Shown here piece by piece: positions 18,714 to 23,231 of a stretch of DNA of 64,000 bases (its first letter is position 1; each line of letters starts with the position of its first letter). The position numbers and the translations under genes are program-made. The DNA comes from Tsuneonella mangrovi. GTDB lineage: Bacteria; Pseudomonadota; Alphaproteobacteria; Sphingomonadales; Sphingomonadaceae. Under the pieces are notes generated by a model. That model searched no databases. It was not told where the DNA came from and worked only from the letters and a program-made list of their open reading frames with translations. The stretch spans positions 620,001-684,000 of the forward strand of contig NZ_CP022889.1 of assembly GCF_002269345.1 (NCBI RefSeq). The letters run 5' to 3'.

Positions 18714-19480
18714 GTATTTCGCCCGAACGCCTGCCGCGGTTCGCACGCCATATCGTGCTGCCGCAAATCGGCGGCGCGGGGCAGGTCGCGCTGGCGCAGG
18801 CGCATGTCATGCTCGTAGGCCTCGGCGGGATCGGCAGCCCGGCGCTGCAATACCTCGCCGGAGCCGGCATCGGGAAGTTGGCGCTGGTTGACGACGACAC
18901 CGTCGACGCCAGCAACCTCCAACGCCAGACGATCTATTCGGAGCGCGACATCGGCCACGGCAAAGCCGTTTCCGCGCGCCGCTGGCTGGCCAATTTCGAT
19001 CCGAAGATCGCGGTTGAACTCGACGATCGCCGGATCGATGCCGCGCGCGCACCGCAGATCGTGGCAGGGGCCGATCTCGTGCTCGACGGAACCGACAACT
19101 TTGCCACCCGCCTCGCAGTATCGGATGCGTGCGTTGCAGCGGGCGTTCCGCTGCTCAGCGCCGCTGTCGGGCGGTTCCAGGGCCAGGTCGGTGCGTTCGC
19201 GGGGCACCTGGCGGACCATGCCTGTTACCGCTGCTTTGTCGGCGACGCGTTCGACGCGGAAGACTGCGACACCTGCGCCGACGAGGGGATGCTGGGCGCG
19301 ATGGCCGGATGGGTCGGCACGTTTGCGGCGATGCAGGCGGTGCGCATCCTCCTCGCCCCGACCGGCGGGATTGGCGATCCGCAGTGGGGCAAATTGCACC
19401 TGCTCGACGGACTTCAACCGGGCATGCGGACGATGACTGTGCCCAAGGATCCGCAGTGCAAGGGCTGCCATAGCGCCTAG
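18710..19480 (+). CDS. ThiF/MoeB/HesA-family sulfur-carrier adenylyltransferase
   Basis: E1-like enzymes adenylate the C-terminus of ThiS- or MoaD-type sulfur carriers. The 256-residue protein begins RFARHIVLPQIGGAGQ, has the nucleotide-binding GLGGIGSPALQYLAGAG, the DNLQRQ equivalent SNLQRQTIYSERDIG, DGTDNFATR, and two zinc-binding cysteine pairs (CYRC and a C-terminal CKGC). There is no rhodanese domain. Which carrier it serves cannot be told because no thiS or moaD gene is in the window. It overlaps the DUF983 gene by 4 bases. Confidence 0.92.
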   Translation: MSISPERLPRFARHIVLPQIGGAGQVALAQAHVMLVGLGGIGSPALQYLAGAGIGKLALVDDDTVDASNLQRQTIYSERDIGHGKAVSARRWLANFDPKIAVELDDRRIDAARAPQIVAGADLVLDGTDNFATRLAVSDACVAAGVPLLSAAVGRFQGQVGAFAGHLADHACYRCFVGDAFDAEDCDTCADEGMLGAMAGWVGTFAAMQAVRILLAPTGGIGDPQWGKLHLLDGLQPGMRTMTVPKDPQCKGCHSA

Positions 19481-19548
19481 GCCGGGCGACGAATTCGTTT
19501 GCCGCTCCTGGGATTTAGTGCTTCGGTCCCGACAGGGGGCATCGACTG

Positions 19549-20835
19549 ATGGAACAATCCCGGCCATTCGGCATCTGGACTGCGACCGCTGTCGTAGTCG
19601 GCACCATGATCGGCGCGGGGATATTCGTGCTTCCCGCAGCCCTCGCGCCTTACGGCACCACCGGCACGGTGAGCTGGATCATCGCCGGGGCGGGCGCCAT
19701 CACGATAGCACTGGTCATATCCGCGTTCGCCGCCAGTCGGCCCGATGAACCGAGCACTCTCGCGATTTGCGGAGATATCCTTGGACTGATGCCTGCCCGG
19801 CTGATCGCCTGGGCCTATTGGACATCGGTTTGGACCAGCATGTCTATCGTCGCCATCACGGGCGCGGCATACCTGCTGCACCTTTTTCCCGCCGCCCCGC
19901 AGGGCACGTGGGCTAACGCGATCCTCGCCACTGCAATCATCGCGATCGTTTCAGCTGCAAACCTGCGCGGGGCAGGCACAGCCGGGAACCTGCAGGTTGT
20001 AACAACCCTGCTCAAGGTCATACCGCTTGCGGTCGTGATAGGCGTTGCAGCGTGGCTGGGAACCTCGTCGCCGCAAACCTTCTCTGCAACCCACGTCCCG
20101 TCCTTTTCGCTGGCTCTTCTGACCCCAACCCTTGCGATCACGTTCTACGCAATGGTGGGCTTCGAGACCGCCGGCCTGGTGGCAGAGCGGGTTCGCGATC
20201 CCGCGCGCAATGTCGCGCGCGCAACGGTAATTGGCGTATTGGCGGTGCTTGCAATCTATTGGGTCGTCAGCACCACCATCGTATATGCAGTTCCGACGAC
20301 AGAACTACAGCACAGCAACGCCCCCATCGCAGACTTTGTTGCCAAGTTCGTTGGCACCGGTGCCGGCGACGCAGTCGCGCTGTTCGCGGCCATTTCCGCC
20401 ATAGGCTGCCTCAACGGTATGGTGTTGGTAACCGGCGAAATTCCGCTTGGCCTTGCAAGGGACGGGCAAATACCCGGCTGGATGGCACCTACCAATTCAC
20501 GCGATGTCGCTGACCGGCCTTTGCTGTTGGGCAGCATTCTCTCGATCGCGCTCATCCTCGGCAGCGTGACGGGCCTTGGCGAACGGGTACTGGATTTCAT
20601 GCTGCGCCTGACAAATGCGTCGGCAATCGTGTTCTATGGCGGAATTTGCATCGCCGCAATCGCGGCCCGTTCGAAGCCCGTCCACGCCTTCATCGGTTTG
20701 GGTTTCTGCGTCTGGATGCTCTACGGAACCGGCTGGCAGGCTGGCGGGCTTGGGATGCTGCTGATGGCCGTTGCAGTTCCTTTGCACTTCCTGATCGGCG
20801 GACGCACGACGGCGCGCGGGACCGCGCCGGCCTAG
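19549..20835 (+). CDS. APC-superfamily amino-acid permease
   Basis: The 428-residue integral membrane protein has about 12 helices and the APC hallmark first helix (VVGTMIGAGIFVLPAAL, about residues 16-32), a FYAMVGFETAGLVAERVRDPARNVARAT segment typical of basic-amino-acid and polyamine/putrescine transporters, and a broken seventh-helix region. The substrate cannot be read from sequence. Its TAG stop is formed at the junction with the adjacent 266-bp repeat element: TA belongs to the target duplication and G to the element, so the insertion rebuilt the stop. Before insertion the stop would have been TAA at the same place. Confidence 0.9.
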   Translation: MEQSRPFGIWTATAVVVGTMIGAGIFVLPAALAPYGTTGTVSWIIAGAGAITIALVISAFAASRPDEPSTLAICGDILGLMPARLIAWAYWTSVWTSMSIVAITGAAYLLHLFPAAPQGTWANAILATAIIAIVSAANLRGAGTAGNLQVVTTLLKVIPLAVVIGVAAWLGTSSPQTFSATHVPSFSLALLTPTLAITFYAMVGFETAGLVAERVRDPARNVARATVIGVLAVLAIYWVVSTTIVYAVPTTELQHSNAPIADFVAKFVGTGAGDAVALFAAISAIGCLNGMVLVTGEIPLGLARDGQIPGWMAPTNSRDVADRPLLLGSILSIALILGSVTGLGERVLDFMLRLTNASAIVFYGGICIAAIAARSKPVHAFIGLGFCVWMLYGTGWQAGGLGMLLMAVAVPLHFLIGGRTTARGTAPA

Positions 20836-21102
20836 GCCGCGTGGACAAACTCCGCACGAGCCACGGTTCGAGACCCATTTGGCTGCTTGCGAGGCGCAAA
20901 ACCGAAGTCAGAGTGGGCCTCTTGCAAGGTTTTGCAACGAAGCAGGCGGCCAAATGGGCCGAACCCCGCAGGGGCCGGGCCGAAAAGCGCCATTTCTGCG
21001 TCGTTCTTCCTCGAATATGCCAGCATATCCTTCGTCCTCACTCCTTGAACTGACGCTTTTCGACTCCGGCCGTGACCGTGAGGAATTTGTCCACGCGGCC
21101 TA
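20833..21102 (+). mobile_element. MITE-like 266-bp element, copy 1 (between permease and cobB)
   Basis: The body is 20835-21100, flanked on both sides by TA (20833-20834 and 21101-21102). Its two ends are inverted repeats: the first 15 bases (ggccgcgtggacaaa) are perfectly matched by the complement of the last 15, with weaker pairing out to about 33 bases. An inner inverted repeat pairs 20874-20883 with 20949-20958, and ccccgcagggg lies near 20964. A second copy in the same orientation with about 18 mismatches and no gaps lies at 21814-22079. There is no transposase gene. The size, terminal repeats and TA duplication fit a miniature element mobilised by an IS630/Tc1-type transposase. Confidence 0.85.
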
Positions 21103-21801
21103 ACCCGCCAATACTTCCTCGACCCACGCCGGCACGACTTCGCTCGCCGAGCCAAGCCGCGTCTCGTCGAACCAGCTGCTGCCCTGGCTGCGCTCGAGGT
21201 TGAGTTCGAGCGTCTGCGCACCAAGGCTCCTGGCATCGCGCACGAAGCCCGCCGCGGGATAGACCGCCCCGCTGGTGCCGATCGACACGAACAGGTGCGC
21301 GGTGCGCATCGCCGCGTAGATCTCCTCCATCCGGTAAGGCATCTCGCCGAACCACACGACGTCGGGCCTAAGCGCGCGCGCACCGCAGCGCGGGCATGGC
21401 GGGCGGTCGGCAAGCGGACCGGTCCAGCGGCTGCGCTCGTCGCAATAGGTGCACCACGCATTGAGGTGTTCGCCGTGCATGTGCAGCACCCGGCTGGCGC
21501 CGGCCCTCTCATGCAAGTCGTCGACGTTCTGCGTCACGATCAGCAGGTCGCCATTCCACGCACGATCGAGCCGAGCGAGCGCATCGTGCGCCGGGTTGGG
21601 CAGCTTCTCCTGGATCGCCGCGCGACGCATGTCGTAGAACCGCAGCACGAGGTTGGGATCGCGCTCGAACGCCTCGGGCGTCGCGACATCCTCGACCCGG
21701 TGCTGCTCCCACAGGCCCCCGCCGCCGCGAAAGGTGTCTATTCCGCTTTCTGCACTGATCCCGGCACCGGTCAGGATCACGATATTGCGAATGTCTGGCA
21801 T
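21100..21801 (-). CDS. cobB: NAD-dependent protein deacylase (SIR2 family)
   Basis: CobB sirtuins remove acyl groups from lysines using NAD. The 233-residue protein has IVILTGAGISAESGIDTFRG (NAD binding), TQNVDDLHERAG, the catalytic HGE motif (LHMHGEHLNAW) and a four-cysteine zinc site (CTYC and CPRC). The stop codon TAG lies exactly on the end of MITE copy 1. The start codon at 21801 is only 10 bases from MITE copy 2, so the AGG of its probable ribosome-binding site straddles the element's end. The gene is thus bracketed by directly repeated elements and could be lost by recombination between them. Confidence 0.96.
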   Translation of the reverse strand: MPDIRNIVILTGAGISAESGIDTFRGGGGLWEQHRVEDVATPEAFERDPNLVLRFYDMRRAAIQEKLPNPAHDALARLDRAWNGDLLIVTQNVDDLHERAGASRVLHMHGEHLNAWCTYCDERSRWTGPLADRPPCPRCGARALRPDVVWFGEMPYRMEEIYAAMRTAHLFVSIGTSGAVYPAAGFVRDARSLGAQTLELNLERSQGSSWFDETRLGSASEVVPAWVEEVLAG

Positions 21802-21811
21802 GGCTCGATCC

Positions 21812-22081
21812 TAGGCCGCGTGGACAGATTCCGCACGAACCACGGTTCGAGACCCATTTGGCTGCTTGAGAGGCGTAAGACCGAAGTCAGAGTGGGCCTC
21901 TGGCGAGGTTTTGCAACGAAACAGGCGGCCAAATGGGCCGAACCCCGTAGGGGCCGGGCCGAAAAGCGCCAATTCTGCGTCGTTCGTCCTCGAATATGCC
22001 AGCATGTCCTTTGTCCTCACTCCTGGAATTGACGCTTTTCGCCTCCGGCCGTGACCGTGAGGAATCTGTCCACGCGGCCTA
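21812..22081 (+). mobile_element. MITE-like 266-bp element, copy 2 (5' of cobB)
   Basis: The body is 21814-22079, flanked by TA (21812-21813 and 22080-22081). The two ends match for 19 bases (ggccgcgtggacagattcc) as inverted repeats. Compared with copy 1, the base pair at position 14 from each end has changed together: A with T in copy 1, G with C in copy 2. The internal inverted repeat (cccatttggc with gccaaatggg) is conserved. The inferred empty target was CTAG, as preferred by IS630-type transposases. It carries any promoter that cobB has, since it begins 10 bases before the cobB start codon. Confidence 0.85.
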
Positions 22082-22184: not shown

Positions 22185-23231
22185 ATGGGCATGAAGATAT
22201 TCGCGATGATCGCAGCGGCGGCCTTGGCCTCGGCGGCAACGGCGCAGGATACCGCGCCTCCGCTCGCCCCCGCCGAACCGCTCAGCACCTACCTCGACAA
22301 CACCGGCCGGCCCGATGCGTGGTCGGGCGGCGAGCGGATGGTGCCGATCACCACGCCCGACGGCACCTTCAAGGTATGGATCAAGCGTTACGGCAACAAT
22401 CCGCACATGAAGCTGCTGCTGCTCCATGGCGGACCTGCGATGGGCCACGACTACATGGCCGCGTTCGACAGTTTCCTCCCCGCGACGGGGATCGAGTTCT
22501 ACCAATACGACCAGCTCGGTTCGGGCTGGAGCGACCGCCCGGACGACGACAACCTGTGGACGATCCCGCGCTATGTCAGCGAGGTCGACCAGGTCCGCAA
22601 GGCGATCGGCGGCGACGCCAGCAACTTCTGCCTGCTCGGCCACAGCTGGGGCGGTATCCTCGCGATCGAATACGCCCTCGCCCATCCGGACAAGATCAAG
22701 TGCCTCGTCATCTCGAACATGATGGCTTCGATCCCCGCCTACAACGAATACGCAGATAAAGTGCTCAAGCCGCAGCTCGATCCGGCCAAGCTGGCGCTGA
22801 TCGAAAAGCTCGAGGCCGAAGGCAAGACCGACGACCCCGCCTACATGGGCACGCTGATCCCGGCTTGGTACGAACAGCACATCCTGCGGCGCCCGTTCGA
22901 CCAGTGGCCGATCGGCGCGATGCATTCGTTCGAACGGGCCAACCAGCACATCTACGTGTTGATGCAAGGGCCAAGCGAGATGGGTGCCGGCGGGACGCTC
23001 GTGAACTGGGACAGGTTCAACGACCTTGCCAACATCGCCTTGCCCACGCTGGTGATCTCAGGCAAATACGACACGATGGACCCGGCCTACATGGCAAAGA
23101 TGGCTGCCAAGCTGCCACACGGCGAGCTGCTCGCCACCAACGGCAGCCACATGGACATGTACGACGACCAGGCGACCTATTTCGCCGGGCTGAACGCATT
23201 CCTGCTGCGGCAGGCCAGGACCGGAAGCTGA
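22185..23231 (+). CDS. Secreted alpha/beta hydrolase, proline-iminopeptidase-like (S33)
   Basis: The 348-residue protein has a signal peptide (about 1-22, cleavage after ATAQ) and an alpha/beta-hydrolase domain of the S33 type. LLLLHGGPAMGHDY holds the oxyanion-hole HGGP motif, GHSWGG the nucleophile Ser, and the likely acid and base are Asp in SGKYDTMDPAY and His in NGSHMDMYDD. S33 enzymes release N-terminal proline or hydrolyse related amides; the exact substrate is not readable. dapB follows after 8 bases, probably in the same transcript. The start ATG at 22185 is followed by another ATG two codons later. Confidence 0.87.
   Translation: MGMKIFAMIAAAALASAATAQDTAPPLAPAEPLSTYLDNTGRPDAWSGGERMVPITTPDGTFKVWIKRYGNNPHMKLLLLHGGPAMGHDYMAAFDSFLPATGIEFYQYDQLGSGWSDRPDDDNLWTIPRYVSEVDQVRKAIGGDASNFCLLGHSWGGILAIEYALAHPDKIKCLVISNMMASIPAYNEYADKVLKPQLDPAKLALIEKLEAEGKTDDPAYMGTLIPAWYEQHILRRPFDQWPIGAMHSFERANQHIYVLMQGPSEMGAGGTLVNWDRFNDLANIALPTLVISGKYDTMDPAYMAKMAAKLPHGELLATNGSHMDMYDDQATYFAGLNAFLLRQARTGS

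Follow-up and report, generated by a model that had tools for sequence, protein, structure and literature searches.

A 270-bp MITE occupying the stop codons of a permease gene and cobB in Tsuneonella mangrovi, and the gene-end bias of its family

Introduction

In the stretch of the Tsuneonella mangrovi genome analysed here (64,000 nucleotides, positions 620,001 to 684,000 of contig NZ_CP022889.1, hereafter the window), a gene for an APC-family amino acid permease and cobB, which encodes a Sir2-family deacylase, converge upon a short palindromic element that contributes to the stop codons of both. The question that this locus raises is how an element can occupy two stop codons at once and leave both proteins as they were, and whether this is peculiar to one site or follows from the way the element ends and the sites at which its family inserts.

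Short, non-coding elements with inverted terminal repeats, a TA duplication and several copies per genome are known from bacteria as MITEs, for example the Correia elements, RUP and Nezha, and these are tied to IS630-type transposases.

Two further systems are relevant. The first is IS870 of Agrobacterium vitis, for which the title of Fournier, Paulus and Otten (1993), as cited in PMC6471742, gives a 5'-CTAG-3' target as needed for its own ORF to acquire a stop codon. The second is the IS427 group of the IS5 family, which is spread across the Alphaproteobacteria and has been described in Paracoccus as having two overlapping transposase frames, a 2-bp duplication, a DDE transposase and short inverted repeats (PMC3281130).

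The element and the two stop codons

Read directly from the sequence, the copy between the two genes (copy 1, Table 1) begins TAGG and ends CCTA, its 31-nt arms are 87% complementary, and the whole, an imperfect palindrome, contains internal hairpins and has a folding energy of -141.8 kcal/mol (z = -8.7). Two more full copies are present in the same genome, copy 2 in the window (93% identical to copy 1) and one elsewhere (97%), along with short or partial copies at three additional places. With its complementary arms, its fold z-score and the two further full copies, the ends of copy 1 are not due to chance.

Table 1. Coordinates in the window of the element copies, the two genes flanking copy 1 and their stop codons
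Feature	Position	Strand	Remark
MITE copy 1, flanking TA dinucleotides included (270 bp)	20833..21102	.	outer terminal inverted repeat TAGGCCGCGTGGACAAAYTCC
MITE copy 2	21812..22081	.	same orientation as copy 1, 93% identical, at CTAG
APC-family amino acid permease ORF	19549..20835	+	stop TAG takes the element's first G
cobB (Sir2-family deacylase)	21100..21801	-	stop TAG takes the element's terminal C/G pair
Permease stop codon, TAG made of the duplicated TA and a G of the element	20833..20835	+	sequence read directly
cobB stop codon, TAG made of the duplicated TA and a G of the element	21100..21102	-	sequence read directly

The preliminary description of this locus held that each of the two stops is completed by the element, and this is confirmed to the base. 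The permease gene ends GCG CCG GCC TAG, where T and A are positions 20833-20834 and the G at 20835 is the first element base after the TA, and cobB ends GCG GGT TAG, seen on the forward strand as a CTA whose C comes from the element. Its arithmetic is also right, as deletion of the element with one TA leaves CTAA, in which the permease ends in TAA and cobB in TAG with a 4-base overlap, and ends of the form TAGG/CCTA do give an in-frame TAG to both genes at a CTAR convergent stop. The rule is wider than that description stated, since an element that starts TAGG and finishes CCTA will always yield TAG on insertion into a TAA or TAG stop, and any such stop therefore stays a stop; where the 4-base CTAR overlap of convergent genes is hit, there is consequently one TAG for each gene. 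Longer C-termini were looked for in relatives and neither cobB nor the permease appears shortened: cobB in relatives finishes with LAG or LGG before the stop, or a near equivalent, and the permease tail is about as long as that of its homologues. The element occupies both stops without altering either protein.

Copy 2 lies upstream of cobB, 10 bp from its start codon, and may affect the ribosome-binding region of this gene; with both copies in the same orientation, cobB is bracketed by direct repeats. In most relatives cobB and dapB are divergent and nearly abutting.

Distribution and relation to insertion sequences

A search for the 21-base end across 397 genomes of the family found it in 36 genomes, which belong to 22 of 96 genera; in the genus of the window it is carried by the window genome only. 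A scan of named genomes gave 64 stretches, mostly from Novosphingobium, Sphingobium, Sphingomonas and Stakelama. Where ends are paired they fall mainly into two size classes, one of ~268 bp and one of ~1.16-1.39 kb; a 68-bp derivative (L025:982-1049, that is G000:C1:1759881-1759948) is little beyond the two ends joined. The short class is a non-autonomous MITE: at 270 bp it has inverted ends and no transposase gene, 33 copies can be aligned, and TA is present on both sides in most copies.

Ends of 19-21 bp are common to this MITE and to IS5-family insertion sequences, mostly of 1.16-1.39 kb, in related sphingomonads. These encode a two-frame transposase with matches to Pfam DUF4096 and DDE_Tnp_1 and to NCBIfam NF033580 'IS5 family transposase' (ORFB 164 bits, ORFA 115 bits, cut-off 110), and the copies that were read have two overlapping frames and a duplicated TA, as would be anticipated for an IS427-like element. 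Because a two-frame IS5 transposase lies between the same ends, the 270-bp element is best read as a MITE of such an insertion sequence; its interior has no obvious sequence kinship to the insertion sequences, and the partnership is drawn from the shared ends and the target site. An IS630-type MITE, which the TA duplication and CTAG had suggested, is ruled out, as the ends go with an IS5-family transposase. There is no NF033580 match in the window genome, and with no such transposase resident its copies are probably immobile relics.

The second transposase frame reaches the very end of the insertion sequence, and its stop consists of the TA of the duplicated target and one flanking base. In 11 copies the CTAG/YTAR target completes the stop in this way, with G as the completing base in 9 and A in 2, and these figures come from a listing that sought frames ending at the element edge and left failures uncounted; of the 13 frames listed, two were left out (the second frame of L129, which is short, and one in L147 that does not belong to a transposase), and the long copy L198 lies outside the 11. 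The C-terminus reads ...YWLKFVHAA in most copies and ...KFVHAA or a near variant overall. A relative annotated as IS869 is 43.6% identical. One MITE copy (L111:1295-1562) occupies the stop codon of an apparent further IS5-type transposase gene, the frame of which ends ...PFVHET.

As far as the title of the IS870 paper indicates, the insertion sequences described here resemble IS870 in completing the stop of their own transposase from the target, but whereas IS870 is autonomous and concerns its own ORF, the MITE is non-autonomous and rebuilds the stops of host genes. They likewise share with the IS427 group the two frames, the 2-bp duplication, the DDE transposase and the short inverted repeats, although the Paracoccus members are listed at 832-865 bp, in contrast to the mostly 1.16-1.39 kb of the insertion sequences that share ends with the MITE (PMC3281130).

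Unlike the Correia elements, RUP and Nezha, the element has IS5-family ends, a constant length of 268 bp and strong covariation. Elements of this general kind, a MITE and a CTAG-specific IS5-family element, are already known. No prior literature on this MITE family was found in the library searched, and within that library neither what it does at host stop codons, counted as here, nor its covariation as a family appears to have been described.

Target sites and gene ends

Among 71 paired elements the target quartets are CTAG in 49, CTAA in 6, TTAG in 6, TTAA in 5 and others in 5, so that the preference for CTAR proposed from the window copy is, across the other copies, one for CTAG (49/71) or more loosely YTAR (66/71). 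CTAG sites are scarce, with 88, 113 and 195 per roughly 400 kb in three genomes, and 13-16% of them fall at stop codons.

The preliminary description called for a tally of copies against stop codons, and this was carried out on 35 MITE copies whose ends and flanks were clean, each scored on the emptied site. A few of the 35 are shorter or longer and have nothing but the ends in common with the rest, and the copies as a set are not fully independent of common descent. Genes were called by a dicodon model trained on the same loci, not taken from curated annotation. This model recovers dnaA, moeB, the permease gene, cobB and the hydrolase gene with the expected ends, and most window genes near the element exactly, and was used instead of an earlier, weaker codon model that under-called genes, the permease among them. 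The background was 568 CTAG sites in 1.65 Mb, of which 85 fall in a single stop and 4 in a double one, whilst 221 are intergenic and 258 are within genes. Of the MITEs, 14 occupy a single stop and 3 the two stops of a convergent pair, whilst 15 are intergenic and 3 are within called genes. Gene ends are thus strongly over-represented (17/35 against 89/568, Fisher p=1.3e-5) and gene interiors depleted (3/35 against 45% of the CTAG sites, Fisher p=5.6e-6). When only sites that are not inside genes are considered, stops still account for 17/32 MITEs and 89/310 background sites (p=0.008), an enrichment that exceeds target availability, and so some extra bias or selection remains. Double convergent stops are likewise enriched (3/35 against 4/568, p=0.005), the three cases being the window, L078 and L160 (Sphingomonas sp. 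IC081). The suggestion that convergent stops are safe sites for the element therefore stands in that stops are tolerated and double stops enriched, but convergent stops are not special, as 14 of the 17 copies at stops hit a single gene.

That a stop can be hit with the end of the protein left intact is borne out by one comparison of filled and empty sites. In genome G234, which belongs to a genus other than that of the window, a gene ending QYVNELAGRAGRLI before the stop has a copy in its stop codon, and four relatives (G069, G193, G138 and G300) are without the element at this site and stop at the same codon, their ends reading RLL TAA, RLI TAG, KTL TGA and KSL TGA. A copy in G111 was left out of this comparison, as the alignments with its relatives mostly stay within the gene and seldom reach the gene end.

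The family is a clean, countable case of target specificity and terminal letters governing which places in a gene-dense genome are open to a transposon, and one in which the principle by which IS870 completes its own gene protects the genes of the host, sometimes two together.

Origin of the window site and of the gene-end bias

The history of the permease-cobB junction is less clear than its present state. The permease is absent from all 10 other genomes of the genus, which means that the junction without the element cannot be compared there, and the permease is missing from all 29 of the nearest cobB loci in other genomes. In the window the conserved dnaA-moeB-cobB-dapB neighbourhood is interrupted by the permease gene and by a gene for an alpha/beta hydrolase (22185-23231), and the permease gene codes atypically. 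It could be that the cobB stop was occupied by the element first and that the permease came later, with or via recombination between element copies. Its want of a counterpart in the ten congeners would fit this, as would its coding score of 0.238 per codon, the lowest among the surrounding genes, and the arrangement in relatives, where moeB faces cobB without the permease in between and in several cases overlaps cobB by 12 bases. Moreover cobB is flanked by two directly oriented copies, and the 2-bp TA duplication, being common to element copies, carries no history; as it also fits recombination between copies, insertion into a formerly empty junction cannot be proved from it. A weak sequence like an element end is also present at the moeB stop, where positions 19478-19497 read GCC TAGGCCGGGCGACGAATTC, resembling the end with one gap. 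This sequence is just a lead, and may be a decayed copy or chance given that 4 of 3666 TAG sites, the moeB site included, score that high without being known copies. Against the later arrival of the permease, the rejoined site CTAA matches the target preference of the element family, 4-base convergent overlaps are normal in the window genome (4 of 47 convergent pairs), and the permease and cobB ends are both of natural length, and we therefore regard it as a possible but rather doubtful account of the site.

For the family as a whole, it is very probable that we are dealing with a MITE mobilised in trans by an IS5-family transposase that prefers CTAG, with ends that restore stops and with selection piling up copies at gene ends. 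An IS427-group-like transposase of the IS5 family would move the MITE, inserting at the TA of CTAG, or more loosely of YTAR, and duplicating just the TA; insertions inside genes would be lost whilst those in stop codons would be near neutral, and for this reason copies would accumulate at gene ends. Mobilisation in trans and selection as the sorter are the parts of this that we infer. Target choice and the loss of genic insertions would together explain most of the bias, so that recognition of stop codons is not needed. The transposase or the element might instead actively pick gene ends, for example via transcription termination or convergent transcription, and both the enrichment of stops that persists once sites inside genes are set aside and that of double stops are in keeping with such a choice. 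The stop effect is modest, however, after genic sites are excluded, the element shows no bias in orientation with respect to the gene that it terminates (6 same, 6 opposite) and selection against insertion into intergenic promoters predicts an equal pattern, all of which makes active choice improbable.

Retention at gene ends might also be due to a function of the element there as a folded bidirectional terminator or RNA stability element, and it is here that the fold has to be considered. The 33 copies are nearly all 267-270 bp, their alignment (A1) is almost gapless and the distant ones are ~65% identical; the consensus fold has 85 pairs, with 97.3% of cells paired and 39 of the pairs changed on both sides, and pairing falls to ~42-44% in a control in which the partner was slid by one base. 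A constant length of ~268 bp and a covarying fold at ~65% identity are unusual for a decaying MITE, and the excess of G-U over A-C mismatches on one strand (66 against 31 cells) is a weak hint of constraint at the RNA level. Covariation is nevertheless expected both from selection on RNA or DNA structure and from palindrome correction during DNA replication, which can also produce compensatory change. The lack of any orientation preference toward genes and the position of 15 of the 35 copies between genes, away from any stop codon, also speak against a terminator, and Rfam has no match for the element, which rules out a known RNA family. Retention for such a function would on balance seem unlikely, and less likely still is a family specialised to gene ends, in which stop-restoring ends and the conserved fold would together make a two-way terminator between convergent genes; were it so, insertion between such genes would be useful to the host, beyond being harmless. 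Trans-mobilisation followed by loss of genic insertions thus stays the preferred reading, and the combination of constant length and covarying fold offers a test of selection against palindrome correction for the structures of bacterial MITEs. Finally, one copy (L168:3107-3374) seems to have the inside of its first hairpin turned round with respect to its sister copies, as if flipped via a cruciform or a template switch.
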